64,000 nt of DNA from Aciduliprofundum sp. MAR08-339 (lineage in GTDB: Archaea > Thermoplasmatota > Thermoplasmata > Thermoplasmatales > Aciduliprofundaceae): assembly GCF_000327505.1 (NCBI RefSeq), contig NC_019942.1:124001-188000 (forward strand), in the 5' to 3' direction. The notes beneath the pieces were generated by a model. That model ran no database searches. It was not told the origin of the DNA and worked only from the letters and a program-made list of their open reading frames with translations. How positions within the stretch are numbered: the stretch's first letter is position 1; the number at the start of each line of letters is the position of its first letter. Positions 17,216-45,655 of the stretch are shown here, piece after piece. The position numbers and the translations under genes were made by a program.

Positions 17216-18376
17216 ATGTATCTTACAAAATATGAGGAGAAAATCCTAGATGGAGAACTGGGAGAAGGTTACGCAAAGATGATGAAAATTCTCGTTAAAA
17301 TAGGAGAGATCTACGGTGCAGACGGGCTGATTCCCATAAAATCCGCTCAAATCTCAGGTGTGTCCTACAACACCATAGGTGAACACGGGCTTTACTTTCT
17401 TAAGTCCCTAGAGGGGGTGAAGGTGAGAGTCCCAGCAACCCTCAATCCTCTGGCCTTTGATGAAAGATATATTGATCTCCTAAAGGTCGATTCTCACATT
17501 TACAAAAGGCAGATGGAGATAATAAAGGCCTATGTTGATATGGGCATAAAGCCCACTGCAACTTGCACCCCCTATTACTATGACAACGTTCCAAAATTAG
17601 GAGAGCATATAGCCTGGGCCGAGAGTTCCGCTGTGATATACGCCAACTCCATAATAGGCGCAAGAACAAACAGAGAAGGGGCAGTTACAGCATTGGCGGC
17701 AGCAATCATCGGGAAAACCCCAAACTATGGATTGCATTTGGACGAGAACAGAAGGGCAACCCATATTGTTGATGTGAAATTCAAGCCCGAGGGTGAGGAC
17801 TATCCCCTGATAGGGCTGTTCATCGGAGAGAGCGTAAACGGCATTCCCTACCTCAGATTTGCAGGCACAAACGATGATTTCAAACTTATGGGAGCGGCCA
17901 TGGCAGCATCTGGAAGCATATCAATGTATCACATTGAAAATTTCACTCCAGAATTCAAAAATGCCCTGAGCGATGAGGTCGAGCGAATAGAGGTGGAAAG
18001 AGAGGATCTTGATAGAATGAAAAGGGAAGTGGATGTGGAACTTGTGGCCATCGGATGCCCCCATGTATCCCCTTCAGAACTGCGCAGAATTGCAGAATTT
18101 GTAAAGGGCAAAAAAAAGAAGAAGAACGTTCAACTCTGGATATTTGTGGCAAGAAGTGTGTGGAATAGACACGAGGATTTAGTTAAATTTATCGAGGAAT
18201 TTGGGGGCAAGGTAATGGTTGATACCTGCGTGGTTGTGAGCAACGCTGGAAAGATCTACAAAAAAATAGGTACAACATCAGGCAAGGCCGCATTTTATCT
18301 GAGCAAGGAAAAATTCGGAGGTGCAAGGGTTATGGTTGCAGACCTATACACACTGCTCAGGAGCGTGGTAGAATGA
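17216..18376 (+). CDS. Aconitase X catalytic subunit (phosphomevalonate dehydratase large subunit)
   Basis: 386 residues of the AcnX catalytic family. Visible parts are the N-terminal LTKYEEKILDGELGEGYAKMM, the Cys-containing TATCTPYY, a WAESSAVIYANSIIGARTNREG segment and the late CVVVSNAGKIYKKIGT. In archaea the two-subunit AcnX makes trans-anhydromevalonate 5-phosphate in the modified mevalonate pathway to isoprenoid lipids. The iron-sulfur ligands should be Cys residues, though I cannot assign all three. The swivel subunit overlaps by 4 bp, and purH is 9 bp upstream. Confidence 0.9.
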   Translation: MYLTKYEEKILDGELGEGYAKMMKILVKIGEIYGADGLIPIKSAQISGVSYNTIGEHGLYFLKSLEGVKVRVPATLNPLAFDERYIDLLKVDSHIYKRQMEIIKAYVDMGIKPTATCTPYYYDNVPKLGEHIAWAESSAVIYANSIIGARTNREGAVTALAAAIIGKTPNYGLHLDENRRATHIVDVKFKPEGEDYPLIGLFIGESVNGIPYLRFAGTNDDFKLMGAAMAASGSISMYHIENFTPEFKNALSDEVERIEVEREDLDRMKREVDVELVAIGCPHVSPSELRRIAEFVKGKKKKKNVQLWIFVARSVWNRHEDLVKFIEEFGGKVMVDTCVVVSNAGKIYKKIGTTSGKAAFYLSKEKFGGARVMVADLYTLLRSVVE

Positions 18377-18735
18377 TTCTCAGAGGACGTACAATTCTGG
18401 AGGGGAATGTTGAAGGTACTGTGGTAAAATTTGATAAGCCTATCGTGATTTTAGGAGACGTAAACGAGAAAGAAGGTACGATCTTGGGCAAGGAAATCAA
18501 GGGAAAGATAGTTGTGTTTCCCAGAGGTGCGGGAAGCACGGTGGGTTCTTACACCATATACGGATTGAAATACTATGGCAACGAGCCCCTTTCATTCATA
18601 CTCCAAGAAGCAGAGACAATTGTGGCTGCAGGGGCCATTATGGCGAATATACCCACTTTGGACAGGATAGACACTTCAAAAATAAAAGATGGAGATAGGG
18701 TCAGAGTTTCTGGAAACATAGTGGAAATCCTGTGA
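18373..18735 (+). CDS. Aconitase X swivel subunit (phosphomevalonate dehydratase small subunit)
   Basis: 120 residues of the DUF126/AcnX swivel domain, with ILRGRTILEGNVEGTVV, the phosphate-loop-like FPRGAGSTVGSYTIY and the GAIMANIPTLDRID end. It closes over the active site of the partner encoded just upstream. The ATGA overlap suggests stoichiometric coupled translation. Confidence 0.92.
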   Translation: MILRGRTILEGNVEGTVVKFDKPIVILGDVNEKEGTILGKEIKGKIVVFPRGAGSTVGSYTIYGLKYYGNEPLSFILQEAETIVAAGAIMANIPTLDRIDTSKIKDGDRVRVSGNIVEIL

Positions 18736-21700
18736 CTATCTTATCTCTCCGTCCACATATTTCATTATCTTCTCAAGTTCAAAGCTTTCAATTTCTTCTA
18801 TGTTGAAAAACATATACGCATTTTTCTCCTTCAACTTCTCCTTTATCCTACGGAGAACTTCCATAAGAGAATCCAGAGGGTTTATGGCCAGAAGCAAATC
18901 AAAGCAATCTGCCAGAATTAATTTCCCGCCCTTCTCTATAAATCTAATGATCTCACTTTCAAGTTTATCAATCTCCTTTGGCTTTATACTTTTTCCAAAG
19001 GGAACGTAAGAGATCCACAGAGTTTGCACGTTTTTCAGGTCGTACTCCTTTTTGACCTCCTCAGGATTGTCCTTCGTAATGAGCAATTTCTTCTCGCTCA
19101 AAATCTCTTCTGGAACACTGTCTATCATTTTTCGCAGATCCCCTATTACCAGATAGAGGTTGCCTCTCTTCATCCTTTTCTCTTTCATCTTCACACGTAT
19201 GGGTGCACCACAAAGAGGGCAGAACTCATCTTCTTGGGATAATTCCGCACCACAGAATGGGCAGTATTCCCTACCCTTTACCTTCTTTGATTTGAAAGCC
19301 GTGGAATAGACATAGTCAATTATCTTTCTGGCCATATTAAGCGGTATTCCGGATATTTCTGCCAACTCTTCGGGTTTGGTCTCCATAAGTTCGTATATGC
19401 TCCCGAATCCCAACTTAAACAACAGTTCTGCACGGGACTCATCAATTCCAGGTATGCTCTTAAAAGCCTTGATGACCCATTTCTTGAACAGAGGGTTTAT
19501 CCCGATGATTATACGATATCCCATAATGGGCCATTCAACAACGTATCCATACTCAGGAATGTAGTACTCGACATTTCTGGCTAGGCACTGTTGCTTGATT
19601 TCGTCTTCGTACCCCTTTACCATCTTTATTACATCAGAGTTACCATAAATGTTCACATCAACCAAATCATCAAAATCCATCTCTATATCCTTCCGCATGC
19701 TGTTTATCCGCCGCACAATCTCTTTAACCAGCCGGATTCTCCTAGTTGATGCATCTCTCTCGGTGTAAACATACAGTTCCCCATATTTTGATTTTAACTC
19801 CTCGTAACCCTCAGGCACCTTTTTCAGGTATCTCACCATCTTTGGGGTGATCTTTATCAGAAAACCCTCCACCCCAAGAGTGTAACCCCCTTTTTCCATG
19901 GCATCCATAACTTCCTTCACGTTCTTTCTCCGGAGCAGAAACGATATCTTAGGAGCCCAAGCACGGTATGCTGCACTTATCTCCTCAATATTGGGCTCTA
20001 TCTCAATTTCCATCTCTTCCCATTCCCTTACAGCGGTCAGGGCAATAATATTCTCAACCCTGAAAATATAGGGTCTAAGATCGTTTATATCGCCTGCATA
20101 CTCAGACACGAAAACAACTTTCTTAAGGGGCTCTCTCAGGGGTATGTTATTTCTCTCTCTGTATTCCCTGAGAAGGGTTATCACATCCCTCAAAACCTCA
20201 ACACTCTCAATTTCAGGGTAATCCTCAAAGGATAGAATGATTTGATCAATGCCCAATTTCTCCATCAAAGATGCTGCAAATTTAGGAAGATATGGATAGA
20301 GCAGCGTCAGGATATCCTTAATCAATTTCCTGGCCAGTGGATCCTTTCTTTTGAGAGGCACATAAAAATGTGAGATGTCGTGGAGCACATAATTGTAGAA
20401 TCTGTCAAAGGACTCTTCGATTTTGCCCTTCTCGACCAGTTGTACAATGCTTCTCTTAACCTCTTCGTTCTTCCACAGGGCCCAGTAATCAACATCGGTG
20501 TACTCATCACTCTGGCCGTAAATTTCAACGTATCTCACAATATTTTCAACCACCGATTTCAATTTTCTGACCTTCCTCAAATCTTCCTCGTTTATCTTTC
20601 CACGCCTCTTCATCAAAAGCACACATTCCTCATCCTCATCTGGTTCATTCATTAAATCATGTGAGAGCAATATGCTGCGGTTAAAGAAATAGCCCCGAGA
20701 GAGCCTCAACATACCTTCAATGGCCTTTTGCACCCCCACTCTGCGAATATGCACAAAACTCAGGTCCACAGGATGATGTAATTCATGTACGTATGCACCG
20801 ACCGCAACAAGTTCAGGTCTGAGCATGAATTTTCTCTCCATTATGCCTCCACACACAGGACAGTCCATGATCTTCTCACCGTACTCAATGTGGCCACAAT
20901 TTGAGCAGTGTAGCACAGGCAATTTATAAGAACCGCTTGGGGAGGATAACTGAATCTTCACCTCCTCATCCTCTGCAAATAAAACTGGAATTTTCCCCTC
21001 CACAAGCACGCTTCCACATTTGGGACACACATGGATGGGCTCAACTCTTTTAAAGGAATAAATAAGCGAATAGGATGGAATTTTGGATTTGAGATGAAGT
21101 TCCTCCACATCACCCTTACGTATTATTCTGGAGTTTCCATCACCAAGAATGACATGGGATTTGAAATTGATTTTTTCCAATGTACCCTTTTCTACCTTTT
21201 TTATCTTATCCTCTGGAACTTCAAGTTTCTCAATCAAAATATCTCTGAGATGGCCAGGTGCAAGCCATTTCTCATCGGGAAAGGACACAAGAATTAAATC
21301 TTCTCCCCCAATAAAAACTCCAACCGCTTCCTCTCCGGATTCAATTTCCCCGATAAAATAGGTCCTCTTGGCAATTCTGATTTTCACGAGATTTATCTTG
21401 ATTTCCCTTTCAATTATCTTTACCTCATGCGCTTTATAGTACTCATCACACTTCTCACAGTAATAGTTATTCAAATAATGAACCTTCAATTTTTCCATGG
21501 TGTAAAGTTCCTTTATTAGGAGGGAAATCTCATCAGTGTATCTGTCTGCATAAATTAACCTAGCATATGGAGCCTTTTCTCTCAACCTTTTAAGATAATT
21601 CTCACCTGAGTGAACCACAAAGATTATGGGTTTCTCTTTTCCAAGAATTTCGTAAAACCTGTGGATAAAATTGAAGTGGATAATTTCATCTAATACAGAA

Positions 21701-21753
21701 TAGGATAGTGTATCGTATATTGGATACGAATACAAGCCTCGATTTTTTTCCAC
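18736..21753 (-). CDS. Degenerate isoleucyl-tRNA synthetase-like chimera (HhH, zinc ribbon, DUF835-like)
   Basis: 1005 residues from GTG 21753. Residues about 240-400 align by eye with the part of IleRS between the editing insertion and KMSKS: HVCPKCG, HCSNCG, DCPVCGG. The HIGH motif is not visible, and KMSKS is replaced by something like MKRRGK (381-386). Residues about 420-720 resemble the IleRS anticodon-binding region (LREYRERNNIPLREPLKKV at 528-546, VKEIVRRINSMRKDI at 676-690). Then come a helix-hairpin-helix segment (about 764-815), a zinc ribbon (CPFCGAEL...CPLCGAPI, 831-852) and a C-terminal domain like DUF835 (about 865-1000). It is probably not a working synthetase but may still bind tRNA or nucleic acid. 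The frame is fully open, so it is not a pseudogene. Confidence 0.75.
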   Translation of the reverse strand: MEKNRGLYSYPIYDTLSYSVLDEIIHFNFIHRFYEILGKEKPIIFVVHSGENYLKRLREKAPYARLIYADRYTDEISLLIKELYTMEKLKVHYLNNYYCEKCDEYYKAHEVKIIEREIKINLVKIRIAKRTYFIGEIESGEEAVGVFIGGEDLILVSFPDEKWLAPGHLRDILIEKLEVPEDKIKKVEKGTLEKINFKSHVILGDGNSRIIRKGDVEELHLKSKIPSYSLIYSFKRVEPIHVCPKCGSVLVEGKIPVLFAEDEEVKIQLSSPSGSYKLPVLHCSNCGHIEYGEKIMDCPVCGGIMERKFMLRPELVAVGAYVHELHHPVDLSFVHIRRVGVQKAIEGMLRLSRGYFFNRSILLSHDLMNEPDEDEECVLLMKRRGKINEEDLRKVRKLKSVVENIVRYVEIYGQSDEYTDVDYWALWKNEEVKRSIVQLVEKGKIEESFDRFYNYVLHDISHFYVPLKRKDPLARKLIKDILTLLYPYLPKFAASLMEKLGIDQIILSFEDYPEIESVEVLRDVITLLREYRERNNIPLREPLKKVVFVSEYAGDINDLRPYIFRVENIIALTAVREWEEMEIEIEPNIEEISAAYRAWAPKISFLLRRKNVKEVMDAMEKGGYTLGVEGFLIKITPKMVRYLKKVPEGYEELKSKYGELYVYTERDASTRRIRLVKEIVRRINSMRKDIEMDFDDLVDVNIYGNSDVIKMVKGYEDEIKQQCLARNVEYYIPEYGYVVEWPIMGYRIIIGINPLFKKWVIKAFKSIPGIDESRAELLFKLGFGSIYELMETKPEELAEISGIPLNMARKIIDYVYSTAFKSKKVKGREYCPFCGAELSQEDEFCPLCGAPIRVKMKEKRMKRGNLYLVIGDLRKMIDSVPEEILSEKKLLITKDNPEEVKKEYDLKNVQTLWISYVPFGKSIKPKEIDKLESEIIRFIEKGGKLILADCFDLLLAINPLDSLMEVLRRIKEKLKEKNAYMFFNIEEIESFELEKIMKYVDGEIR

Positions 21754-21834: not shown

Positions 21835-23127
21835 ATGTTTCACAAGGTGGAAGAGGTACTTTCAGATGATTTCATAGGAAAGGAGGTTAGCCTTCGGGGC
21901 TGGATTTACAGGAAGAGGCGCATGGGAAAGATCATTTTCGTGGTTCTCCGAGACTCTTCAGACATAATCCAGTGTGTTGTTGAGAAGAAAAAGATAGGTT
22001 CAGAAAAGTTCAAGGAACTTGATAAGGTTGGGGTGGAATCTTCCATAATACTCAGCGGTTCTGTAAGAAAGGAGGCCAGAGCTCCAACAGGATACGAAAT
22101 TGATGTGAACACCATTGATATCATTGGGCCTTCATACATGTTTCCCATAACCAAGGACAAGAGCGATGATTTCCTCCTTGACAACAGACATCTCTGGCTA
22201 AGGAGCAGGGAGATGAACGCCATCCTTAAAATTAGGCACACCGTTTTTGGAGCCATTCATGATTACTTCAGGGAAACAGGGTATTATGAGGTACAGGGCC
22301 CCATATTCGTCACTGGTGCTGTGGAAGGGGGATCCACCCTATTTGAGGTTCCTTATTTTGGCAGAAAGGCATACCTCACACAGAGCGCGCAATTCTACCT
22401 TGAAACTTTCATATTCTCCCTCGAAAAGGTATATACCATTGCTCCCAGTTTTCGTGCGGAGAAGAGCAGAACGAGGAGACACCTCACAGAGTACTGGCAT
22501 GCAGAGGCAGAGGCAGCATGGTACCACAACGATGATATGATGAAGGATGAAGAGGAACTCATAGTGCAAATAATTCAGAGAGTTTTGGACGAACGTAGAA
22601 GGGAACTTGAATTTCTAAACAGAGACATAAAAATCCTAGAAAACATAGAGAAACCTTTCATTCGTATGAAGTACGGGGAACTCATCGAATTTGCCCAGAA
22701 TGAAGGAATTGATATTGAGTATGGCGATGATCTTGGAGCGGATGAAGAAACTGCAATAACAGTGAAGTTTGACAAACCTATTTTTGTAACCCACTACCCA
22801 GCATCAATAAAACCATTCTATCACAGACCGGATCCTGAAAATCCAGAGGTTGTTCTGTGCCATGACATGCTCGCTCCAGAGGGATACGGAGAGATCATAG
22901 GTGGAGGTGAGAGAATCTACAAACTGGATGTGCTTATTCAAAGGATGGAAGAAGAGGGGCTCAATCCTGAGAACTACTACTGGTACGTGGATCTTAGAAA
23001 ATACGGAAGCGTACCCCATGCGGGATTCGGTCTGGGTGTGGATAGGCTTGTGTGGTGGCTTGCAGGATTATCACACATAAAATACGCCATACCGTATCCC
23101 AGAACAATAAGAAGGACAAAACCATAA
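21835..23127 (+). CDS. asnS: Asparaginyl-tRNA synthetase
   Basis: 430 residues. The N-terminal OB-fold anticodon-binding domain (about 1-110) begins with the SLRGWIYRKRRMGKIIFVVLRD pattern. The class II catalytic domain has motif 2 (PSFRAEKSRTRRHLTEYWHAE) and motif 3 (GFGLGVDRLVWWLAG). The TEYWHAEAE segment and WWLAG end favour Asn over Asp specificity. It charges tRNA-Asn directly, so this organism need not depend only on transamidation for Asn-tRNA. Confidence 0.9.
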   Translation: MFHKVEEVLSDDFIGKEVSLRGWIYRKRRMGKIIFVVLRDSSDIIQCVVEKKKIGSEKFKELDKVGVESSIILSGSVRKEARAPTGYEIDVNTIDIIGPSYMFPITKDKSDDFLLDNRHLWLRSREMNAILKIRHTVFGAIHDYFRETGYYEVQGPIFVTGAVEGGSTLFEVPYFGRKAYLTQSAQFYLETFIFSLEKVYTIAPSFRAEKSRTRRHLTEYWHAEAEAAWYHNDDMMKDEEELIVQIIQRVLDERRRELEFLNRDIKILENIEKPFIRMKYGELIEFAQNEGIDIEYGDDLGADEETAITVKFDKPIFVTHYPASIKPFYHRPDPENPEVVLCHDMLAPEGYGEIIGGGERIYKLDVLIQRMEEEGLNPENYYWYVDLRKYGSVPHAGFGLGVDRLVWWLAGLSHIKYAIPYPRTIRRTKP

Positions 23128-33223: not shown

Positions 33224-33267
33224 GAGCCCCTTTGGAAAAGGTGCTTTACCCCCAAAGGGCTGCAGAG
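33224..33267 (+). other. tRNA intron at canonical position 37/38
   Basis: 44 nt between the base 3' of the anticodon and position 38. The intron folds on itself (AGCCCCTTTGG with CCAAAGGGCT, one bulge), giving the bulge-helix-bulge context cut by archaeal splicing endonuclease. The exact cut depends on that fold. Confidence 0.8.
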
Positions 33268-33284
33268 ACCGGGAGGTCGCCGGT

Positions 33285-33344
33285 TCAAATCCGGTCGGCC
33301 CCATTTCTTATTTTACCGGTCCCATCCAAATTTGAACTTTTCAC
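33285..33344 (-). pseudogene. attL-truncated 5' end of the attP-spanning gene
   Basis: The Shine-Dalgarno (GGAGGTGAT) and GTG start of the 69-codon gene seen whole at 50656-50865 are present here. The frame crosses the attachment core and hits TGA in the antisense of the tRNA T-loop after 19 codons. At this chromosomal junction the gene is therefore cut. It lies directly downstream of the copy-1 integrase. Confidence 0.7.
33288..33302. repeat. Attachment site core at attL (15 bp shared)
   Basis: AATCCGGTCGGCCCC is the tRNA 3' end and recurs at 50809-50823. The base to the left differs (A 33287 versus C 50808), which fixes the left edge of the unit. The right edge of the core cannot be set, because the outer right junction is outside the window. 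Confidence 0.85.
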
Positions 33345-33358
33345 ATATATCACCTCCT

Positions 33359-34216
33359 CTATTTTTCCTTTATTTCGTGGGTTTCTACATCATATCCTCC
33401 AAATAGGTTATCCTTCTCGTAAATCTGAGATAGAGTTATTGAGCTCAGTAATGACTTGAGATAAATCTGAGTGGTGGATAGCTTTGCATGGCCCAAATAC
33501 TGCCTTATTGCCTCAAGATCCACACCCTTTAAATAAAGATCCACGGCCCTCCAATGTCGGCAACTGTGAGGATGCAATGGCTTACCCAAGGCCTTCGCTA
33601 TGGTCCAGAAAATAGTCCCTATGGTCTTTATGTGGATCCTCCCTTGGGATGTGGTGAAAAGTGCATATTTGTCAGATGGAATCCTGTAATATTTGATATA
33701 ATCATAGGTTAATTTCCATACCTCCTTTGGCATTGGAATTTTCCTAGATACATTCATCTTACTGTCTCTTATGCTGATCCACCTTTCATTAACATCTCCT
33801 ACATTTAAATTAGCAATCTCGGATCTCCTCAAGGCTAAAAACGCATACCTTACAATTAACTGGTTTCTCCTGGTAATCCCTGGATTAGGCCATTTGAAGT
33901 TTAATATGAATTCCATATCTTCCTCCGATGGAATATATATCTCCCTTACGCTACGGGTGGCCCAGGTTTTAAGCTTTATATCCTTACCCAGAAATCTCAT
34001 ATATGCGTTTATCGCCTTTATGTCATGGTTTAATGCAACTTTACCCCTTTGCATCTCCTGATCCATTAGCCATAATGTGAGATCAGTTTTTGAGATGTTG
34101 TTAAGATCTATCTGCTGAAAAATCCTCCTCAGTCTACGATCATAATCGTCTATCGTTGCTCGCCGATATCTCTCGTTATACATCCACATCAGAAATTCAT
34201 CACGGTTATAACTCAC
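33359..34216 (-). CDS. int: Tyrosine recombinase (integrase), copy 1
   Basis: 285 residues from a GTG that overlaps the upstream stop (GTGA). The N-terminal SAM-like core-binding domain (about 1-90) is followed by the catalytic domain with R130 (FLALRRSEIANL), H217-x2-R220 (HPHSCRHWRAVDL), H243 (LGHAKLSTTQ) and nucleophile Y252. It recombines the 3' end of tRNA-Ile with attP. The gene is whole and is not itself split by attachment, unlike SSV-type integrases. Its stop TAG is followed at once by the Shine-Dalgarno of the attP-spanning gene, which shows the two belong to one operon in the circle. Confidence 0.93.
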   Translation of the reverse strand: MSYNRDEFLMWMYNERYRRATIDDYDRRLRRIFQQIDLNNISKTDLTLWLMDQEMQRGKVALNHDIKAINAYMRFLGKDIKLKTWATRSVREIYIPSEEDMEFILNFKWPNPGITRRNQLIVRYAFLALRRSEIANLNVGDVNERWISIRDSKMNVSRKIPMPKEVWKLTYDYIKYYRIPSDKYALFTTSQGRIHIKTIGTIFWTIAKALGKPLHPHSCRHWRAVDLYLKGVDLEAIRQYLGHAKLSTTQIYLKSLLSSITLSQIYEKDNLFGGYDVETHEIKEK

Positions 34217-34623
34217 TCCCTCACCCCAACATCAGGGCCCGGGGAGTACTTCAGCTCCCCAAGGCCAGACATCCCATCCTCTTCCAGCATCTCAAAAAGA
34301 TAAGATCTTCCTTCATCGGTTATTCGGTACACCCAGATTACACGCCCGTGATTGCTTGGAACCCCTGACTTCACCACACCAACCTCTTTGAGATAACCTT
34401 TCCTTTTCAGTGCCCCGATCACGGCACCCAGCACCTTCTTGTTCACTCCAGGAGGGCAGTACTCTCGTAGGTCATCAGCCGTGATTGTTTCCTTTTCAGA
34501 TGCGAGTTTCAAGGCAATGATTTTCAGCTGCTCATAAACTGGACGGCCCTCAAAATAGCGTGGCAAAACAAAAGATGCAAACGGATCCTTGTAATCGTCC
34601 AGCCGCAGCTGCCCACGCATCAT
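34213..34623 (-). CDS. Winged-helix protein, 136 aa, copy 1
   Basis: Residues about 30-115 look like a winged helix: ITADDLREYCPPGVNKKVLG, GALKRKGYLKEVGVV, then a basic wing SNHGRVIWVYRITDEG. Similar small proteins occur in phages, where their role is unclear. It could regulate the integrase or assist replication. Overlaps both neighbours by a few bases. Confidence 0.65.
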   Translation of the reverse strand: MMRGQLRLDDYKDPFASFVLPRYFEGRPVYEQLKIIALKLASEKETITADDLREYCPPGVNKKVLGAVIGALKRKGYLKEVGVVKSGVPSNHGRVIWVYRITDEGRSYLFEMLEEDGMSGLGELKYSPGPDVGVRE

Positions 34624-34721
34624 TACTCGTCACCATTAATCTTTTTGCGCATCTCAAAGCACTCTTCAAGCGTTCTGCCGCGGCAGTACTCATCCAAAAA
34701 CTCCTTCTCTCTCAGCTTCAT
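34623..34721 (-). CDS. Small charged protein, 32 aa, copy 1
   Basis: Begins at ATG 34721 in an ATGA overlap with the upstream gene and ends in a TAATG overlap with the winged-helix gene. The peptide (MKLREKEFLDEYCRGRTLEE...) is helical and charged. Coupled junctions at both ends, and identity in copy 2, are the support; no function is known. Confidence 0.5.
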   Translation of the reverse strand: MKLREKEFLDEYCRGRTLEECFEMRKKINGDE

Positions 34722-34903
34722 TCCCCGCTCACCCCTACATCTATCCACTCGCCTGTGAGTGGGTGTAGCATCTTCACATTGCGAAAACGGAGATGCCCGA
34801 ATCTTCGCCTGAACTCTGTGAGAAAATCCTCGCCAACAACATCAACCTCAGTCCAATAGCCATCTTTTCCGTAACTATTCCAGATTTCACATTTGTATAT
34901 CAT
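34718..34903 (-). CDS. Hypothetical protein, 61 aa, copy 1
   Basis: Small soluble protein with beta-strand character (MIYKCEIWNSYGKDGYWTEV; later LRFRNVKMLHPLTGEWIDVG). ATGA overlaps on both sides. Residue 56 is Val here and Ala in copy 2 (base 34737 versus 52258). Confidence 0.6.
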   Translation of the reverse strand: MIYKCEIWNSYGKDGYWTEVDVVGEDFLTEFRRRFGHLRFRNVKMLHPLTGEWIDVGVSGE

Positions 34904-35076
34904 TCCCCGCTCACCTCCGCAAACTCACTCAAAAATTTCTGACCAGATCCAGTTAGATGATCCGTGTAATCAAATGCGATTACTCCCCCACATCTTTTAC
35001 ATCTGTATTCCTTAAATCCCCCGTGAAAACCAATATATTCCCAGTCATTTGCTCCGCAATAGGGGCACTCTCTCAT
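34900..35076 (-). CDS. Zinc-ribbon protein, 58 aa, copy 1 (ATG start)
   Basis: Two CxxC knuckles 21 residues apart (CPYC at 4-7 and CKRC at 26-29) give a typical zinc ribbon. It probably binds nucleic acid or protein. Its ATG at 35076 overlaps the preceding stop; the same codon is GTG in copy 2. Confidence 0.7.
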   Translation of the reverse strand: MRECPYCGANDWEYIGFHGGFKEYRCKRCGGVIAFDYTDHLTGSGQKFLSEFAEVSGE

Positions 35077-35279
35077 TCACTCACCTCCGCAAACTCGTTC
35101 AGCTTCGCCCTGTCGAACACGCCAAGCCGTTCAAGCCTCAGAATCGTGAGCCTCACTATTGTGTGCACGGTCTCATATTCCACATACATCAGATCCGGGC
35201 GATGATCCACCTCGTTCACGAAAATGTCATCTATGATCCGCTGCACTATTCCCTCAGGTACGGTAACATCAGGGAGCAT
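35073..35279 (-). CDS. Helical hypothetical protein, 68 aa, copy 1
   Basis: Unrecognised, acidic, helical (PEGIVQRIIDDIFVNEVDH, TILRLERLGVFDRAKLNEF). Starts inside the end of the AbrB-like gene and ends in an ATGA overlap with the zinc-ribbon gene. Confidence 0.6.
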   Translation of the reverse strand: MLPDVTVPEGIVQRIIDDIFVNEVDHRPDLMYVEYETVHTIVRLTILRLERLGVFDRAKLNEFAEVSE

Positions 35280-35421
35280 CCGCCGCCACCTCCTGCGCTG
35301 TGTGGATCACATCTTTGATCTCTATCTTCACAATGTCTCCTGGCTCAATGTTCAAAATCTCTCTCACGTGCTTTGGTATTGCTATCCTCCCTAACTCCTG
35401 CACCTTTAACACCAACTCCAT
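35269..35421 (-). CDS. AbrB/SpoVT-family DNA-binding protein, 50 aa, copy 1
   Basis: Swapped-hairpin AbrB domain: VQELGRIAIPKHVREILNIE followed by PGDIVKIEIKDV, an almost complete match to the family pattern G-R-x-x-I-P-x-x-x-R-x-x-L-x-I-x-x-G-D. As a dimer it should bind DNA and may repress its own promoter. First gene of the leftward integrase operon, facing the 184-aa regulator across an AT-rich divergent control region. Confidence 0.82.
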   Translation of the reverse strand: MELVLKVQELGRIAIPKHVREILNIEPGDIVKIEIKDVIHTAQEVAADAP

Positions 35422-35441
35422 TCCTATCACCTTATATTTTA

Positions 35442-35497
35442 CAATTATAAGTAATACTTTTAAAGTATTTAAAAGTTTTTATTTTGCAATTATAAGT
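35442..35497. promoter_or_regulatory. Divergent control region with repeats, copy 1
   Basis: CAATTATAAGT occurs twice (35442-35452 and 35487-35497). Between them lies the inverted repeat AATACTT-TTA-AAGTATT (35453-35469), which adjoins a leftward TATA-like TTTAAATA. The region separates the AbrB gene from the rightward 184-aa regulator gene and is the natural operator of one or both. Confidence 0.55.
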
Positions 35498-35541
35498 TAT
35501 AAAATTAAATCCTAAATATTATAGTTACATAATTATCAGTT

Positions 35542-36096
35542 GTGAGTAGTAAGTCATCTTTAAATGAAAAGCATGCGGCAACAATCTTAAAAGAACTATT
35601 AAATTCAGATAAGCCAATTTATATCTCATCTCTTCAATCTTTAATTAAAAATTATTATGCTCTACAAAATACCGTTAATAAACTTGCAAACGAAGGTTAT
35701 ATTGAAATGATAGAAACACAATACAAGGGTAGATCTGCAAAAATGGTAAAGCTCACAAAGAAGGGCCGTATTATAGCGGAGAAACTGAAAGAGATTGATG
35801 AGATGGCTTCCATGCCTGAAGACGAGCTTGAAGCACAAAGAAAGAGGTTGCACTGGATTGTGGATATCAACACCTACACGGACCACATAACCGCATACGA
35901 CATTCACGGTGGAAAGAAGGAAATCTTCAACATCTGGCTCAAGCCAAATGGCAAATATCTTACTTTGTATTGCGATTTGTGCCATTCTGATTCCTGCTTT
36001 CACATTGATTGGGCCCTCCAGGACCCGGTGATAGGTCCCGAGATAAGAGAGATTGCCAAAAAGAAGGGCCTCAAGATAAAGAATGATGGAGAATAG
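35542..36096 (+). CDS. Winged-helix regulator with SWIM-like zinc motif, copy 1
   Basis: 184 residues from GTG 35542, probably leaderless. Residues about 8-85 form a winged helix (HAATILKELLNSDKPIYISS, then GRSAKMVKLTKKGRIIAEKL). The C-terminal part ends with YCDLCHSDSCFHIDWAL (about 143-159), resembling the SWIM C-x-C...C-x-H zinc fold. It is probably a DNA-binding repressor or activator of the rightward genes and may act across the divergent region. Confidence 0.7.
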   Translation: MSSKSSLNEKHAATILKELLNSDKPIYISSLQSLIKNYYALQNTVNKLANEGYIEMIETQYKGRSAKMVKLTKKGRIIAEKLKEIDEMASMPEDELEAQRKRLHWIVDINTYTDHITAYDIHGGKKEIFNIWLKPNGKYLTLYCDLCHSDSCFHIDWALQDPVIGPEIREIAKKKGLKIKNDGE

Positions 36097-36111
36097 TATG
36101 AGGTGGCTTGA

Positions 36112-37047
36112 ATGGGACTATTTAAAAAAATCGGGAAAAGTATGGGCCGGGCCATAGTCAAGACTGGCAAGGCCACGGCTGCAGCCATAAAGAAGAAAAA
36201 TCTTCAGAAGCAGGTAAAGCGGATGATTTTAGAGAGATATACCACCAGAGATCTTAAAAAGATGATAAAGGATTATGATCTTGAAGGACCAGAAATGCCC
36301 GAAAGAGGATATTACAAAAAGGAAGATTATGTGAACTATGTATACAAACTTTTCAAGTTGAAAGAGGTTATTGAAGATGCAAAAGATAGAAAAATACCAA
36401 TCAAAGACATTATGGACTATTACATTGAAGAAATGGAGAAAATAGAGGAAGAGGCCCAGATCTCACCGCAGGAGAGTAAAGTTTCAGAGGAGGAAGAAGG
36501 AGTTGAGGAAATTGAGTATGAGCCTGAGCAATATGTAGCTCCTGAAAGGGGACAGTACAGGCCTCCACCCACAAGTGAAAAAGTTGAATGGAAATTTGAA
36601 GATCCTGATGAAACATTCTTTTATGGACTGTTAAGGGATATTGAGGAGGATTATGCTCCTACTGCTGCAGATACTTCTTTTGTAGATGAAATGGCATTTA
36701 AGGAGCATCTAAAAGCATATCTCATATGGAAATACAAAGGACATAGGATTACTTTCCAGCCAAAATCTGTGGATCTAATTATTGATGATAAGTTTGGATT
36801 GGAACTGAAATTTGCATATAATCGTTCAACTTTATCAAAGGGATATGAAGAAGTAAAAAGATATAAAAGAAAAGTCAAATATCTGGCAATTGTAATCTTG
36901 GATCCTGGGAAATTACCAAGGGATTACTTTAATGAAGTCATTGAAGATTACAAAGATATGGGCGCAGAGGTTATTGTAATAAGAGGAGGTAAAAAAAGAG
37001 ATTTTAGAAAAAAGAAAGAGATCTGGGCTGCTCAGAGAATAAAATGA
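36112..37047 (+). CDS. PD-(D/E)XK nuclease-like protein, 311 aa, copy 1
   Basis: N-terminal about 60 residues are strongly basic (RAIVKTGKATAAAIKKKN). A Glu/Pro-rich linker spans about 110-165. The C-terminal domain has the order expected of a restriction-like nuclease: SVDLIIDDKFGLELKFAY (D about 225, E-x-K about 234-236), then YLAIVILDPG and AEVIVIRGG. It may cut or bind DNA ends, as a host-takeover, recombination or defence factor. Start is 15 bp after the regulator gene; ATGA coupling to the next gene. Confidence 0.65.
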   Translation: MGLFKKIGKSMGRAIVKTGKATAAAIKKKNLQKQVKRMILERYTTRDLKKMIKDYDLEGPEMPERGYYKKEDYVNYVYKLFKLKEVIEDAKDRKIPIKDIMDYYIEEMEKIEEEAQISPQESKVSEEEEGVEEIEYEPEQYVAPERGQYRPPPTSEKVEWKFEDPDETFFYGLLRDIEEDYAPTAADTSFVDEMAFKEHLKAYLIWKYKGHRITFQPKSVDLIIDDKFGLELKFAYNRSTLSKGYEEVKRYKRKVKYLAIVILDPGKLPRDYFNEVIEDYKDMGAEVIVIRGGKKRDFRKKKEIWAAQRIK

Positions 37048-37232
37048 CCCCCAAGGAACTTTTAGGCTGGATCCTTTTCTCTCTCCTCTTCTGGGGCTTT
37101 GGCATATTTGGGGTCTGGCTCTATCTGCACGGAATAGCTGCAGCGCTTGCTCTGGCCATTGCCGCCTTTGCTGGGTGGGCCGTTTACATTTTCATCTTCT
37201 TGGTTTTGCCTTTCCTTCAACTTCAAAGTTGA
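37044..37232 (+). CDS. Small two-helix membrane protein, 62 aa, copy 1
   Basis: Almost entirely hydrophobic: helices about 7-28 and 31-58. Overlaps the nuclease-like gene by 4 bp. A holin-like or virion-membrane role is conceivable but there is no direct support. Confidence 0.6.
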   Translation: MTPKELLGWILFSLLFWGFGIFGVWLYLHGIAAALALAIAAFAGWAVYIFIFLVLPFLQLQS

Positions 37233-37406
37233 ATATCTATATATACATATTACATGGTAAGAGAAAAATCTTCCCCACCACACACCCCACAGCGATAATA
37301 TAAGAATTTGAAAAGTTGTGTAAAATACGGGATTTGTGAGATAAAAACAGTCATGAACCGTCCGTTTGCTGACAAAAACCCCGGAAAAAGGGCGGAAATT
37401 TTTTTC

Positions 37407-37997
37407 TTATGATTTCCGGTAATACAGGATAGATCTTATTGCACTATCTGGGATTCCTAACTTCTCAGAAATCTCTCTCCTGGAGAATCCTCTTTGTGCC
37501 AATCTTCTCACCTTCTCTGCAATCTCATCTGGATACTTGGCCCTTCTCCCTATGTGTTTACCTTCTTTCTTTGCCCTCTCTAGTCCAAGCTTCGTTCTCT
37601 CTCCTATACTCTCCCTCTCGTATTGTGCAAACGCAATAAGGATATTTGCAACGAATCTCCCTGCCGAGGTACTCATATCCAAACCTTCTACCACGGAGGA
37701 GATCTTGGGACCTACCCGCTCAAGTATTTTCTGAAAATCTATGATTGAACGGGTCAATCTGTCCAGGCGCCATACTAAAAGAATGTCCGCTCCGCCCTCC
37801 TCTAAAAAAGTTAAAGCACGCTGGAGCTGCTCTCTGTTCTCTGCACTCTTGCCGCTCTTTGCCTCTTTGAATTCCAAAACCACATCCCAGCCCTTCGCCT
37901 TCGCATACGCTCTGCATGCCTCTATCTGTGCCTCTATGCTGTAGCCCTTCCGCTTCTGCTCCTCCGTGCTCACCCTGGCGTAGATGATCGCTTTCAT
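37407..37997 (-). CDS. Serine recombinase (resolvase/invertase family), copy 1
   Basis: 196 residues. Catalytic Ser10 in YARVSTEEQ, then the resolvase core with LLVWRLDRLTRSIIDFQ, and a C-terminal helix-turn-helix (GFSRREISEKLGIPDSAIRS). This is the small resolvase/invertase architecture. In an element that already has a tyrosine integrase it could resolve multimers or invert DNA. Last gene of the long leftward operon. The 174 bp between it and the rightward genes hold no ORF. Confidence 0.9.
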   Translation of the reverse strand: MKAIIYARVSTEEQKRKGYSIEAQIEACRAYAKAKGWDVVLEFKEAKSGKSAENREQLQRALTFLEEGGADILLVWRLDRLTRSIIDFQKILERVGPKISSVVEGLDMSTSAGRFVANILIAFAQYERESIGERTKLGLERAKKEGKHIGRRAKYPDEIAEKVRRLAQRGFSRREISEKLGIPDSAIRSILYYRKS

Positions 37998-38006
37998 TGG
38001 TTCTCA

Positions 38007-38105
38007 CTACGGGTGCGATAGCATCCATGTATACGCAGCCATTCCAAAGAAAAATGCAATGCCAATAAGATGAATTATAATCAGCATTTTCTCTCCTTTT
38101 TTCAT
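38007..38105 (-). CDS. Tiny membrane protein, 32 aa, copy 1
   Basis: One transmembrane helix (about 8-29) after a short Lys-rich start. ATG 38105 overlaps the stop of the 78-aa gene (ATGA). A longer frame through this region is a shadow of the 78-aa gene. Confidence 0.5.
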   Translation of the reverse strand: MKKGEKMLIIIHLIGIAFFFGMAAYTWMLSHP

Positions 38106-38338
38106 GAGGCTACCCTCCTTTTTATTTTTTCCTTTCTCTTGTAGATGGCATAATTTACTATCATCAGAAATGTCAAAATCACTCCACCAGTCATCCACCA
38201 TATCCACATTTTCTCTGTGGATGATGCCGTCAGGGCCGACGCTATATACTGCCCCAAACCAACCGCCTCTATTACTATTATAGCCCCAAATATCCCGAAT
38301 ATAGTACTTATTTTCCATTTCAAATTTTTCCATCCCAT
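38102..38338 (-). CDS. Small membrane protein, 78 aa, copy 1
   Basis: Two helices (about 9-33 and 44-66) with a basic C-terminal tail KRKEKIKRR. It lies between the ATPase and the 32-aa gene, 18 bp after the ATPase stop. Confidence 0.6.
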   Translation of the reverse strand: MGWKNLKWKISTIFGIFGAIIVIEAVGLGQYIASALTASSTEKMWIWWMTGGVILTFLMIVNYAIYKRKEKIKRRVAS

Positions 38339-38356
38339 ATATTCATCACCTCCATT

Positions 38357-39451
38357 CTATTTATTTTTTTCTACTTCTTCATCCAAGAGCCCAACCAACT
38401 TCTTCCAATTCTTGTGTTTTGCCCGTATGCTCCTCTCGCTTAGATTTATGCCCTCTCTCTCCAGGATCAGCTTTATCTCTTTCGTACCCAAACCTTTTTC
38501 ATATAACCGCCCTATGCGCTCAAGAATGTACCTCTCCTTCTCGCTCTTCACCATCATTAATAATGTATCTTCCTTGGCTCTCTTCGCAGCTTCTAAAAGC
38601 CACTGTGGTGGATTGGTCTCATGTATGAATATTTTTGTTCCTTTGCCTGGGACCGGGGCAAATACAAGCCCTTCGTTGATGTTCAGACTTGTACAGATTT
38701 TCAAAATCTCCTGCCACCCTTTCGGTAAGTACTGCATTGTATTTGCAAGAAGTTCTGCCGTGGTCCATCGGAACATCTTTATGTCTGCTGTATCTCTCAG
38801 CGTGCTCTCAAGTGAACCAGTACGTATCACATTATAGATCACCCATGTGCTCAAGTGCCTGGAGCGCAGGGCTTGAAGGTTCATCTCCACATTCGCATTG
38901 CTAAGTGCTTTTTTAGACATGAGCGCCGGGGCTAACTCATTGTAAAGCACGATTTTCTTTCTTCCATCCAGTGGTGGCAAACTGTAATATTTCTTTATGA
39001 TTATCCTCTCCCCAAGCTCTGGCTTCATCTTTATAATTTGCTCACCAAGTCCATCAACATCTCCATACACGTACATCATTGCATCAGGCATCTTCTCAAG
39101 CGCCTGAAGGGATAGGGTCCAGGCGGTAATTGTTTTGCCAGAATGACGGTTCCCGATAATGGCTAAAAGCTGCGGATACTTCAAAAATGCACGCATCAAC
39201 TCCCCTGGAGATTTTGGAATTATGACAAGGTGTCTATCAGATACTACCCGGTACTTGAACCCATATTTCTCCCTGAATACAACACCAAACAGAACTGCTT
39301 TTCTACGATCCAAATCCCCTCGGCGGTAGCCCTCTTCAGATAATAGTATTGCCTTCTTCAGAAAAGGGGAAATATCCTCAGGTAGAAGACGACTCTCACG
39401 AAGCCAAAAATCGTATTCTCTCATTTTTTGTGCTACATATGTATAGCTCAT
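38357..39451 (-). CDS. P-loop ATPase of packaging/DNA-pump type, copy 1
   Basis: 364 residues. Walker A GNRHSGKT at 100-107 and a Walker B-like KIVLYNEL at 166-173 (terminal Asn-Glu). A following arginine-rich segment ALRSRHLSTWVIYNVIR recalls FtsK/HerA, A32 and Zot-type ATPases of viruses. The C-terminus (about 310-364) looks like a DNA-binding helix-turn-helix. In a virus it would power packaging or extrusion; in a plasmid, transfer. Overlaps the 120-aa gene by 4 bp. Confidence 0.72.
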   Translation of the reverse strand: MSYTYVAQKMREYDFWLRESRLLPEDISPFLKKAILLSEEGYRRGDLDRRKAVLFGVVFREKYGFKYRVVSDRHLVIIPKSPGELMRAFLKYPQLLAIIGNRHSGKTITAWTLSLQALEKMPDAMMYVYGDVDGLGEQIIKMKPELGERIIIKKYYSLPPLDGRKKIVLYNELAPALMSKKALSNANVEMNLQALRSRHLSTWVIYNVIRTGSLESTLRDTADIKMFRWTTAELLANTMQYLPKGWQEILKICTSLNINEGLVFAPVPGKGTKIFIHETNPPQWLLEAAKRAKEDTLLMMVKSEKERYILERIGRLYEKGLGTKEIKLILEREGINLSERSIRAKHKNWKKLVGLLDEEVEKNK

Positions 39452-39810
39452 ACCTTCTCCCCCTCCATGGCTCGTACATCATTCTCTTTTAGCGTGTTGA
39501 TAACCTGAGCATATGGATCCGTCGGGCGGAGGTCTTCCAGTACCGTCTTCTTGGCCTTGTTCTTTATGATACCCAGGTATTTCTTGAAAGTTCTGAGATC
39601 CTTTAGATTCGCATCCTCTGGGATCTCTACTTCAAAGAATTTTGCAACTTCGAGGAGATCGTCTATGTCTCCAGACGGTATGCAGAATTCACTTGTCGGC
39701 AGAGAATTCAACTTCTTTATCTCTGTCTGAAACACTATGATGTAATTCTCCAGTAACGCCTCATGCCATTGCTGGTATACGCTCCCTTTACTCCTCTCCA
39801 CTTCCGCCAT
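39448..39810 (-). CDS. Hypothetical protein, 120 aa, copy 1
   Basis: Soluble, acidic, helical (HEALLENYIIVFQTEIKKL; FKKYLGIIKNKAKKTVLEDL). Start chosen at ATG 39810 behind GAGGTGG; a TTG two codons earlier is also open. Directly upstream of and coupled to the ATPase, so it may be an ATPase partner. Confidence 0.6.
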   Translation of the reverse strand: MAEVERSKGSVYQQWHEALLENYIIVFQTEIKKLNSLPTSEFCIPSGDIDDLLEVAKFFEVEIPEDANLKDLRTFKKYLGIIKNKAKKTVLEDLRPTDPYAQVINTLKENDVRAMEGEKV

Positions 39811-40618
39811 CTCCAAGCCACCTCTTTGCTACTGTTAGCATCACCAAAATAAAAATTAGCACACCTACATACCATGGCCAGCTTCGCCCAGCCAAGGGAT
39901 ACCTGTGTATTTGCTCATAATCATATTCTGCAGGATAGCCCTGAAATTGAAAGTGTGCAAGATCTACACTCATTCCATTACGCCATCCGTATTGATCAAC
40001 AACATCAACGATGAGTATTCCAGTCTTCCAAGATGCAGGTACATTAATTGTTAAATTTGTTACGTTTGTAAATACATCAACAAGGTTCTCCTGTATGCCA
40101 TCCCACACATAGATTTCAAGCCGGAATGTGGTATTTGGATCTATCTGTCCTGTTTGATTTAAAACCTTGCTCTTGAATATAATCTTTGAGCCATCATTTG
40201 AAAAGGTTAATTCGTATGGCAAAGGTGCAGGAACTACTGCAAAATCTTCTTTTATAATCATTGATTTTATGCCATTGTAATCTGTATAAAGTGTGATGTT
40301 ATAATGCCCTTCAGCCATCGCTGGAAGGTATATTGTATTTTGTCTGCCTGGAGGAATCTGTATTGTTGTCTTATAGGTGTAGTTCACATTGATTCCATTT
40401 ATCATTATGTATAGCTGTAGATTTCCATAAATCGGTTTGTTGTCATGGAATGGGATGGCAATCACATGAATTGGAGCGCTGACATTCATAATGTACATTG
40501 GAGAAACATTGGCACGAAACACCACATAGGACCCGCTGGAGGCATGAATTTGAGGCGAAAAACCTAGGGTTACAGCTAAAAAAATGAGAAGTATTAGGGT
40601 GGTTCTCTTACTCATTCT
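39788..40618 (-). CDS. Secreted, membrane-anchored beta protein, 276 aa, copy 1
   Basis: Signal peptide MSKRTTLILLIFLAVTLGFS from ATG 40618 (the longer frame lacks a sensible start). The outside domain is beta-rich with repeated aromatic strands and Asn-x-Thr sites. A C-terminal transmembrane helix (about 245-265) follows Trp-Pro-Trp. It is a candidate virion spike or host surface protein. Confidence 0.65.
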   Translation of the reverse strand, partial: RMSKRTTLILLIFLAVTLGFSPQIHASSGSYVVFRANVSPMYIMNVSAPIHVIAIPFHDNKPIYGNLQLYIMINGINVNYTYKTTIQIPPGRQNTIYLPAMAEGHYNITLYTDYNGIKSMIIKEDFAVVPAPLPYELTFSNDGSKIIFKSKVLNQTGQIDPNTTFRLEIYVWDGIQENLVDVFTNVTNLTINVPASWKTGILIVDVVDQYGWRNGMSVDLAHFQFQGYPAEYDYEQIHRYPLAGRSWPWYVGVLIFILVMLTVAKRWLGDGGSGEE

Positions 40619-40982
40619 CAATTTTCTCCACCTCGCTGATTTTTGTGACCTCAAGGATGTATATCTTTCCACCAATTTTTATGAGTAAGTTGTTCTGAGG
40701 AATGTATGTGAACGTGTACTCTTTTTCCTGCATTCCTTGAAATGCCTCAGCCATCAATGCAAGAAAACTCTTTCTCTGTAAATTCTCATATTTTATTTGC
40801 ATTGCAAGAATGTACATCAGCCACAGGAAAATCACAGCTCCTATGTAGTTTGGTAAAGAGCCTTGCAAATCTCCAGATATGAGCACGTTCACCACTTCGG
40901 CTATTGATACAAATGCAATTGCCATAAGTAATAATGTTGTCCACTTCGATTTCATCAAATACTCCAGAAACTTCTCATTCAC
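40608..40982 (-). CDS. Membrane protein, 124 aa, copy 1
   Basis: Two helices near the N-terminus (about 14-33 and 43-62), then a soluble domain with amphipathic strands (NNLLIKIGGKIYILEVTKI). Overlaps the next gene by 11 bp. Confidence 0.6.
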   Translation of the reverse strand: MNEKFLEYLMKSKWTTLLLMAIAFVSIAEVVNVLISGDLQGSLPNYIGAVIFLWLMYILAMQIKYENLQRKSFLALMAEAFQGMQEKEYTFTYIPQNNLLIKIGGKIYILEVTKISEVEKIENE

Positions 40983-41614
40983 TCTTCACCACCTCTACCA
41001 TGTCTTGCTTTTTCAAGATCTATTAACTCATCTAATGTGAGTGTCGTTTCTTTACGCTCTTTCTCGGCCCTGTACTTCTTTAGTTCTTCGATAAGACTCT
41101 CTGCTACACGTTGCCACATTATTTCCTGATTTACCTCTAGATTCTTTGTCTGATACACAACATAAGATCCTTGTGGCGTTCTAGATACCTCTGCTATTAC
41201 AGTCCACCTTAATCCCCTATTAACTACTTTCTTTTTACTCATTAGATATGTTAATCCATTCACAAGCTTGAAATAGCGTAATCCTCCCTCTTCCCAAGTT
41301 CTTACATACAATTTCCGTTCCTTTGTGCTTGGTATCTCAATCACTGGTACTGTGAGCCATCCAACCCAAGCATCGATAAATACGAAGATCAAAAACCACC
41401 ACATCTGAAAATTAATAGGAGTATGAAGAAATTGGAGTATGAGTAACCATAACTCAAAGTATAAAGCTGAAATTTGCTCTGGCCATAGTAAAACTAGCCA
41501 AGATGTTGTTATTAGCAGAGCTATTAAGAAAATGTAGTACCACCAAGAGGTCTTGATTAGCTTTTTCGGTTTTTCTTTGGGTTTTGGCTTGAAAAACCGT
41601 GAAATTCTGCCCAT
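40979..41614 (-). CDS. Membrane protein, 211 aa, copy 1
   Basis: Basic N-terminus (SRFFKPKPKEKPKKL), two to three Trp-rich transmembrane helices (about 24-90), then a cytoplasmic beta-plus-helix domain ending in a charged segment. 4-bp overlap with the next gene. Confidence 0.6.
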   Translation of the reverse strand: MGRISRFFKPKPKEKPKKLIKTSWWYYIFLIALLITTSWLVLLWPEQISALYFELWLLILQFLHTPINFQMWWFLIFVFIDAWVGWLTVPVIEIPSTKERKLYVRTWEEGGLRYFKLVNGLTYLMSKKKVVNRGLRWTVIAEVSRTPQGSYVVYQTKNLEVNQEIMWQRVAESLIEELKKYRAEKERKETTLTLDELIDLEKARHGRGGEE

Positions 41615-41617
41615 TGC

Positions 41618-41965
41618 TCACCACCCCATGAAAAGCTTTGATATTGCCGCACCAATAATCGCCACTATTAGAATCATTATAATTGCTATCTTGCGTTTTT
41701 TGTTCTCTCCAAAGAATGATGTCTTCACTTCTGTTGATTTTGCGGGTATATATCCGACCTTTTTGGCAAATTCATCAAGCTTCTCTGACATTTCCCTTAA
41801 CTCTTCAGTACTGATTCCTTTTGTCTTCGCCCCTGGAAAATATTTCCAGATCTTCTTAATATACTTCGCCCTCTTCCTCTCATCTTCTTCCTTTCTCTTC
41901 TCTTTCTCCTCTATTGCCCGCAGAACTGCATTAACTATCTTCTCAATCTCTACATCTTCAGCCAT
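41618..41965 (-). CDS. Coiled-coil protein with C-terminal membrane helix, 115 aa, copy 1
   Basis: Lys/Glu-rich helical N-terminus (NAVLRAIEEKEKRKEEDERK), a middle helical segment with a conserved-looking ELREMSEKLDEFAKKVGYIP, and a single helix near the C-terminus (about 93-109). Probably tail-anchored. Confidence 0.6.
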   Translation of the reverse strand: MAEDVEIEKIVNAVLRAIEEKEKRKEEDERKRAKYIKKIWKYFPGAKTKGISTEELREMSEKLDEFAKKVGYIPAKSTEVKTSFFGENKKRKIAIIMILIVAIIGAAISKLFMGW

Positions 41966-41971
41966 GACTTA

Positions 41972-42133
41972 TCACCTCCTTAATATCTCCTCTAAAATCG
42001 TACCGATCTCTACCTTCAAATCTTCAAAAAATTGTGAAAACTTTATTCTTGAGGGTAAATAGTGCCTTACTGAAAACTTCCTAACTTCCTTGCCACTCTG
42101 AACCTTCACCAGTATCTTGATCTCATCTCCCAC
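41972..42133 (-). CDS. Small hypothetical protein, 53 aa, copy 1
   Basis: GTG start 2 bp after the preceding stop. Peptide IKILVKVQSGKEVRKFSVRH then a helical end. Strong Shine-Dalgarno sites lie on both sides (AAGGAGGTGAT precedes the next gene). No known family. Confidence 0.55.
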   Translation of the reverse strand: MGDEIKILVKVQSGKEVRKFSVRHYLPSRIKFSQFFEDLKVEIGTILEEILRR

Positions 42134-42135
42134 GA

Positions 42136-42273
42136 CTAATCACCTTCTCCATGCTCACTATGTATCTTCCTTATCTCTTCCAGCAAGGCATCTATTGCCT
42201 CCTCTAACGTCGCCCTGCGTAAAACCTTGCCATCCCTGATGTAATACTCTCCGTTTATCTCTAAAACTTTCAT
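42136..42273 (-). CDS. Small hypothetical protein, 45 aa, copy 1
   Basis: ATG 42273 overlaps the basic-protein stop (ATGA). Short beta hairpin then an amphipathic helix (LEINGEYYIRDGKVLRRAT, LEEAIDALLEEIRKI). Unknown function. Confidence 0.55.
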   Translation of the reverse strand: MKVLEINGEYYIRDGKVLRRATLEEAIDALLEEIRKIHSEHGEGD

Positions 42274-45374: not shown

Positions 45375-45655
45375 TTTTCGTTCCCTCCTTTTCGGTTCGT
45401 TTTCTTTCTTGTCTTCTTTTTCCGTTCCACAAGCTTGGGCTCTTTTCCTTCTTTCCAGAGTAATGCAAACCCAACTGCTATTATGAATAACGCAAAGAGA
45501 TTCGCCGCTATCGCACCTTTAACCCAGTCGCCATTGAACACGTTTACAACCCAGAAATGCAGATAAATGTCCGTTCCAAATGGAAGAATGTAAACTCCAA
45601 ATCCGAAGAGTATGAATCCAGCAAACGTTAAAATTGCACCTGCTGCCTTGCCCAT
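45359..45655 (-). CDS. Small two-helix membrane protein with basic tail, 98 aa, copy 1
   Basis: Helices about 5-25 and 48-68, then a strongly basic tail (ERKKKTRKKTNRKGG). Follows the 83-aa gene with no gap (TAAATG). Two-helix proteins of this size are the main virion proteins of archaeal spindle-shaped viruses; the match is by architecture only. Confidence 0.65.
   Translation of the reverse strand: MGKAAGAILTFAGFILFGFGVYILPFGTDIYLHFWVVNVFNGDWVKGAIAANLFALFIIAVGFALLWKEGKEPKLVERKKKTRKKTNRKGGNEKWQRL

Follow-up and report, generated by a model that had tools for sequence, protein, structure and literature searches.

Aminoacyl-tRNA synthetase paralogues that are dead or have been repurposed are already known, with HisZ, PoxA, LeuRS-I and SbzA as examples, and for IleRS the review describing them lists only IleRS2 and SbzA (PMC9437257). 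The closest analogue of the protein described here is LeuRS-I from the Sulfolobaceae, a duplicated archaeal class I synthetase with a disrupted editing domain and a divergent C-terminus, which binds its own tRNA without charging it and is required for optimal growth (PMC9437257). Our protein is a duplicated archaeal synthetase as well, for which we infer tRNA binding, but LeuRS-I still forms the adenylate whereas the catalytic motifs of our protein are gone, and unlike LeuRS-I it has a separate type-2 enzyme as its counterpart and possesses a tail of helix-hairpin-helix (HhH), zinc ribbon (ZnR) and KaiC-like domains. Bacterial IleRS2 from Priestia megaterium (PDB 8C8V; PMC10485003) is the best structural match to residues 1–755 of our model, yet it is an active, mupirocin-resistant enzyme and has no HhH/ZnR/DUF835 tail. 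SbzA is an IleRS homologue that has been recruited to another task, as our protein appears to be, but it acts as a catalytic transferase in a biosynthetic pathway (PMC9437257) whereas our protein has no catalytic site. Finally, DUF835 has been described as an inactive form of KaiC that serves as output domain in archaeal response regulators (PMC5847659); this domain belongs to the same Pfam family and shows the same KaiC-like fold as the DUF835 found here, but sits on REC/PAS domains and not on an IleRS.

The protein is encoded in a stretch of 64,000 nucleotides from Aciduliprofundum sp. MAR08-339 (genome of 1.437 Mb, one contig), which is called the window in the following. Its gene (18736..21753, minus strand) starts with GTG and encodes 1005 aa. 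Full-length orthologues of ~1000 aa without internal stops were found in all family genomes with good coverage, with the reading frame being open in 13/13 complete family members, and a collection scan with closer sequences matched only Aciduliprofundum/DHVE2-type records, some of them labelled just Thermoplasmata or Euryarchaeota. The Pfam domains Anticodon_1, DUF5915, HHH_5, Zn_Ribbon_1 and DUF835 were identified in this order, while the class I catalytic domain PF00133 gave no Pfam match in the protein and the NCBIfam ileS model scored only 9 bits (cut-off 621).

Loss of the catalytic part can be followed region by region (all on the minus strand), using as a measure the share kept of those residues that are ≥90% conserved in intact long IleRSs. 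Residues 1–88 (21490..21753) are a remnant of the first Rossmann half in which the N-terminus of IleRS is missing and 8% of the conserved residues are kept, as seen from the alignments, the residue retention and the secondary structure of the model. They are followed by a reduced connective-peptide/zinc region (residues 89–310; 20824..21489) with 6–18% retention, from which the CP1 editing motifs (TTTPWT and GTG..H.AP..G..D) are gone, and by a remnant of the second Rossmann half with the KMSKS region (residues 311–385; 20599..20823; 11%). In the alignment with active IleRSs, the positions of HIGH and KMSKS are occupied by unrelated residues. What has been kept are the zinc knuckles Cys99-Cys102 (21448..21459), Cys243-Cys246 (21016..21027) and Cys283-Cys286/Cys298-Cys301 (20851..20907), whose eight cysteines do not vary across the alignment of 29 proteins, which reaches from active IleRSs to the window protein. 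The helical bundle of Anticodon_1 (PF08264; residues 422–546; 20116..20490; E 9e-12) still shows 33% of its conserved residues, and DUF5915 (PF19302; residues 576–755; 19489..20028; Pfam match 579–730, E 1e-10), for which the title of PDB 8C8V uses the name C-terminal tRNA-binding domain, is the best-kept IleRS part with 54% and a dN/dS of 0.02–0.05. The tail consists of the HhH (residues 756–822; 19288..19488; HHH_5 at 764–813, E 1.6e-6, with a likeness to the HhH of RadA), a zinc ribbon with the invariant cysteines C831, C834, C845 and C848 (residues 823–856; 19186..19287; Zn_Ribbon_1 at 830–852, E 2e-7) and DUF835 (residues 860–1005; 18739..19176; Pfam match 887–987, E 1.4e-15, score 57.7 with a gathering score of 33.1).

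The structure of the whole protein was modelled with AF2 (pLDDT 86, pTM 0.59) from a 29-sequence alignment and resembles IleRS best, with IleRS2 from P. megaterium as the top Foldseek match (E 1.7e-39). Since this alignment held intact IleRSs, which could pull the fold, the model is supportive but not independent. Superposition with VIA-align resulted in Z 22.6 over 739 residues and an rmsd of 10.9 for IleRS2 (8c8u) and in Z 25.0 over 325 residues and an rmsd of 3.3 for MetRS, which we take to mean that the core has shrunk to the size of MetRS. DUF835 modelled alone (pLDDT 94.7) is KaiC-like (Foldseek E 5e-7; Z 13.4 to both KaiC and FlaH) and the Walker A P-loop GxxxxGK[TS] could not be found in residues 860–1005, so that the protein combines a dead synthetase with a dead KaiC-like domain. 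Thus, the original prediction of an IleRS-like protein with cysteine knuckles and anticodon-binding segments, a missing HIGH, a decayed KMSKS and a C-terminal HhH, zinc ribbon and DUF835 could be confirmed, and the motifs, the Pfam result, the ileS score and the residue retention all agree with its idea that catalysis was lost and a non-catalytic role taken.

Despite this decay the gene is well maintained. Over the whole gene, dN/dS amounts to 0.034, 0.069 and 0.096 in the three closer pairs, and the values per domain in these pairs are 0.02–0.04 for DUF5915, 0–0.05 for the HhH, 0.01–0.05 for the zinc ribbon and ~0.04 for DUF835, whereas the catalytic remnants and the anticodon bundle are looser (0.03–0.18), so that the tightest constraint within the genus lies on DUF5915 and the tail. 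These low ratios and the invariant zinc cysteines show that strong purifying selection acts on the window gene and that it is functional.

To place its origin we searched 300 genomes of the class, which revealed long IleRSs of ~1240–1560 aa that resemble the window protein in their C-terminal half and type-2 IleRSs of ~1000–1060 aa without an HhH-ZnR-DUF835 tail. The long archaeal-type enzymes carry HIGT and MSKS and the type-2 enzymes HIGH and KMSKS. A normal ileS is indeed present elsewhere in the genome of the window, at 792926 (1044 aa, 968 bits, HIGH and KMSKS intact), and the closest solved relative of the working type-2 IleRS of this organism is bacterial IleRS2 (989 bits). Catalytically intact long IleRSs of 1330–1560 aa (L122–L130 and L144–L149) end in a DUF835 tail and mostly contain the HhH: PF00133, Anticodon_1, DUF5915 and DUF835 were found in 15/15 and the HhH in 12/15 of the intact long forms read, while the decayed ones possess DUF5915 in 16/16 and DUF835 in 14/16 cases. 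The native long IleRS of the Thermoplasmata (as in L122 and L123) matches the window protein in the order of its domains, beginning with the anticodon domain and ending with DUF835, and is its best sequence match (226 bits to the best long IleRS vs 75 bits to the best type-2 IleRS), and residues 756–1005 of the window protein are collinear (E 3e-28) with residues 1243–1492 of an intact long form. The tails cluster as well, as the DUF835 domains of the long IleRSs and the window family group apart from other DUF835 proteins (SH-aLRT 94); the few 'other' entries inside this group represent these same IleRS loci a second time, and the long form of G170 falls outside. The native enzyme differs from the window protein in having HIGT, MSKS and the editing motifs, and the latter is ~400 aa shorter.

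Judged from sequence, the native long IleRS, which is archaeal-type and tail-bearing, most probably has its decayed counterpart in the window gene, in a lineage that also has a type-2 IleRS. Because DUF835 is carried by all intact long IleRSs read, the tail is collinear and the DUF835 domains group together, the HhH-ZnR-DUF835 tail must be ancestral to the intact enzyme, and the C-terminal domains are not new as had been proposed. A recent fusion of new domains was therefore rejected, the tail being inherited from an active long IleRS. An origin as a copy of the organism's own type-2 IleRS was rejected from the scores, the tail and a tree built from the anticodon domain together with the C-terminal region, in which the type-2 IleRSs form one clade (100*) with the window family outside; in this tree, however, the window family has no firm place inside the long IleRSs, and holding it together with type-2 gave a p-AU of 0.42.

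Decay is graded among the relatives, as can be seen from the kept fractions for the HIGH half of the Rossmann fold and the C-terminal domain, respectively, which are 0.83 and 0.87 in family f17, 0.70 and 0.70 in f29, 0.46 and 0.80 in f9, 0.36 and 0.58 in f12, 0.25 and 0.54 in f31, 0.11–0.20 and 0.44–0.57 in f5 and f4, and 0.08 and 0.54 in the window protein. The pseudo-copies from f29 keep HMGH or HIGH and have lost KMSKS, those from f17 show HxGL or worse and no KMSKS, and in f9, f12 and f31 neither motif is left. DUF835 is missing from the f4 relatives and from one f9 genome. Most reduced are the f3 relatives with ~690 aa, which keep DUF5915 and the zinc sites, gave no Pfam match for the anticodon domain or DUF835, and are tied to the family by synteny with AsnRS and an aconitase-like neighbour. 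The class offers a series from the intact long IleRS via loss of KMSKS, loss of HIGH and a shrunken catalytic domain to proteins with little beyond the C-terminal tRNA-binding domain. The pseudo-long IleRSs of f17, f21 and f26 (L131 in G099, L159–L163) are stretched to ~1670–1825 aa; the frame of L131 spans 2929 aa, with several HhH/zinc-ribbon repeats in its tail. DUF5915 was also found at the end of giant proteins with frames of 1200–2700 aa (L132, L133, L134 and L135 from G100, G163, G121 and G158), with CARDB confirmed in L134 and L135, and as far as domain matches tell, it has moved from IleRS to non-synthetase proteins.

In 14/14 two-copy genomes for which both copies were read (G000, G003, G006, G020, G032, G063, G102, G088, G180, G144, G099, G062, G085 and G115) exactly one copy has both catalytic motifs. 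Which one it is can change: in f8 the situation is reversed, with an intact long enzyme and a ruined type-2 copy, in which KMSKS is replaced by KISRA, KMRNV, KIEAE and similar in 9/9 copies read (L137, L151–L158). These type-2 copies are full-length with weakened editing motifs and never had the tail. As the f8 long form falls among the intact long forms in the tree, more than one origin of the two-copy state is probable. Lineages with a single copy exist for both IleRS types, and therefore neither dead copy is universally needed.

The neighbourhood of the pseudo-synthetase gene is conserved as well. Upstream, head to head with it, lies a gene for an AsnRS-like class II synthetase (21835..23127, plus strand), a neighbour that is conserved in several families, and on the other side is a convergent gene (18373..18735, plus strand), conserved in the family, which we take to be DUF126-like. 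AsnRS adjoins the dead long copy in f1 (with the exception of one genus), f3, f4, f5 and f12 and the dead type-2 copy in 3/3 f8 genomes checked, and among the genomes that could be judged it never adjoins an intact long IleRS. In f3 the intact type-2 IleRS, AsnRS and the dead copy are all located within 10 kb. This adjacency may be a functional link or the relic of an ancestral cluster. In one f8 genome the AsnRS that immediately follows the dead type-2 IleRS (L216:3305-5059) has a frame of 584 aa with an N-terminus ~155 aa longer than in its relatives.

From these results we propose, with a probability of about 55%, that the window protein is a retained pseudo-synthetase from the displaced native long IleRS, which would bind tRNA-Ile without charging it. 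Judged from sequence, a separate type-2 IleRS now charges tRNA-Ile in this lineage, and the old protein, freed from catalysis, has lost HIGH, KMSKS, the sites for editing and a large part of the catalytic domain, with the zinc knuckles, the anticodon bundle, the C-terminal tRNA-binding domain and the HhH-ZnR-DUF835 tail being kept under purifying selection. It might grip tRNA-Ile chiefly at the anticodon arm via DUF5915, and the tail might dock partners to which tRNA-Ile or the charging machinery is brought, so that the protein could sense tRNA-Ile or act as its chaperone or adaptor. The originally predicted role in binding nucleic acids, for example in sensing tRNA-Ile, is plausible because selection keeps the tRNA-binding part. 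Against a grip on tRNA counts that the anticodon domain changes more quickly than the tail and has only 33% of its conserved residues left, and since DUF5915 also ends the giant CARDB-containing non-synthetases, its ligand may be another than tRNA-Ile; the net charge of the window protein, taken as an indicator of RNA binding, was uninformative. Two other roles were rejected: trans-editing as the general role, as the CP1 editing motifs decay together with the synthetic site, and a substitute for TiaS in tRNA-Ile2 modification, as TiaS was found in 30/30 genomes tested.

The gene could also be retained for its tail, with HhH-ZnR-DUF835 being a signalling or DNA-associated module, the synthetase part a mere carrier and tRNA binding irrelevant. 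We regard this as doubtful, though as the most serious alternative, as the tail is together with DUF5915 the most constrained part in the genus of the window, DUF835 proteins are numerous (5–14 matches in G000, G003, G062 and G072) with the known output domains of response regulators among the family, and in the Thermoplasmatales-like f6, where no pseudo-IleRS copy was found, DUF835 is absent in 2/2 genomes tested. The gene persists, however, in f4 and the one f9 genome without DUF835 and in f3 without most of the tail, and the retained dead copy of f8 never had one. DUF5915 is the common denominator of all dead copies including those of f3, f4 and f8, and for this reason binding of tRNA-Ile is favoured over a role of the tail only. 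A different possibility is that long and type-2 IleRSs formed a complex in two-copy lineages, in which one partner could lose catalysis while a structural or allosteric task would retain both. The single motif-intact copy in every two-copy genome read, whose identity varies by lineage, and AsnRS beside the dead copy of either type, suggesting a synthetase cluster, would fit such a heteromer, but the known IleRSs are monomers, a lone IleRS of one type or the other is present in many families, and in f3 the intact type-2 IleRS is also near AsnRS, so that the linkage may be inherited clustering. We thus consider the heteromer improbable, and rate lower still the more speculative model in which two IleRSs of different origin became an obligate pair with one dead member, at least twice and with opposite partners silenced, the dead partner being associated with AsnRS in a multi-synthetase assembly of archaea that would have a link to KaiC-like regulators.

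Some enzymatic activity might be left, either an unusual aminoacylation or a transfer chemistry as in SbzA, which transfers Ile from tRNA (PMC9437257); IleRS2 tolerates a swapped HIGH motif (GXHH) (PMC10485003) and the f29 pseudo-copies keep HIGH or HMGH, but for the window family, with HIGH, KMSKS and the editing motifs lost and ~10% of the conserved catalytic-domain residues left, this is very improbable. That the gene is simply a neutral pseudogene on its way out is hardly credible: it does evolve faster than the intact IleRS (56% vs 79% identity between G000 and G003), but the frame is open in all complete family members, dN/dS stays well under 1 for each domain measured in the closer pairs and the zinc cysteines are invariant.

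If the retained pseudo-synthetase is the correct reading, an essential enzyme has been caught losing its place to another and becoming a pseudoenzyme, with the intermediates preserved across an archaeal class, and the reversal in f8 would be a natural experiment on which synthetase functions beyond charging are worth keeping. A literature search on IleRS paralogues, DUF835 and HhH-IleRS in archaea gave no description of such a protein, in agreement with the expectation that no described protein has this make-up, and the literature searched contained neither a native IleRS that had been displaced and then retained as a KaiC-tailed pseudoenzyme, with intermediate stages of decay and a lineage in which the roles are swapped, nor an intact IleRS with a DUF835 tail, even though intact IleRSs of many Thermoplasmata carry this KaiC-like regulatory tail.

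Elsewhere in the window, ~33240–46090 and 50760–63610 are direct copies of ~12.8 kb with an offset of 17521 bases and essentially 100% identity. Seven other ORFs tested in the copy or at its edge gave no Pfam match; the repeat carries a tyrosine recombinase (33359–34216) and looks like a duplicated integrated element.
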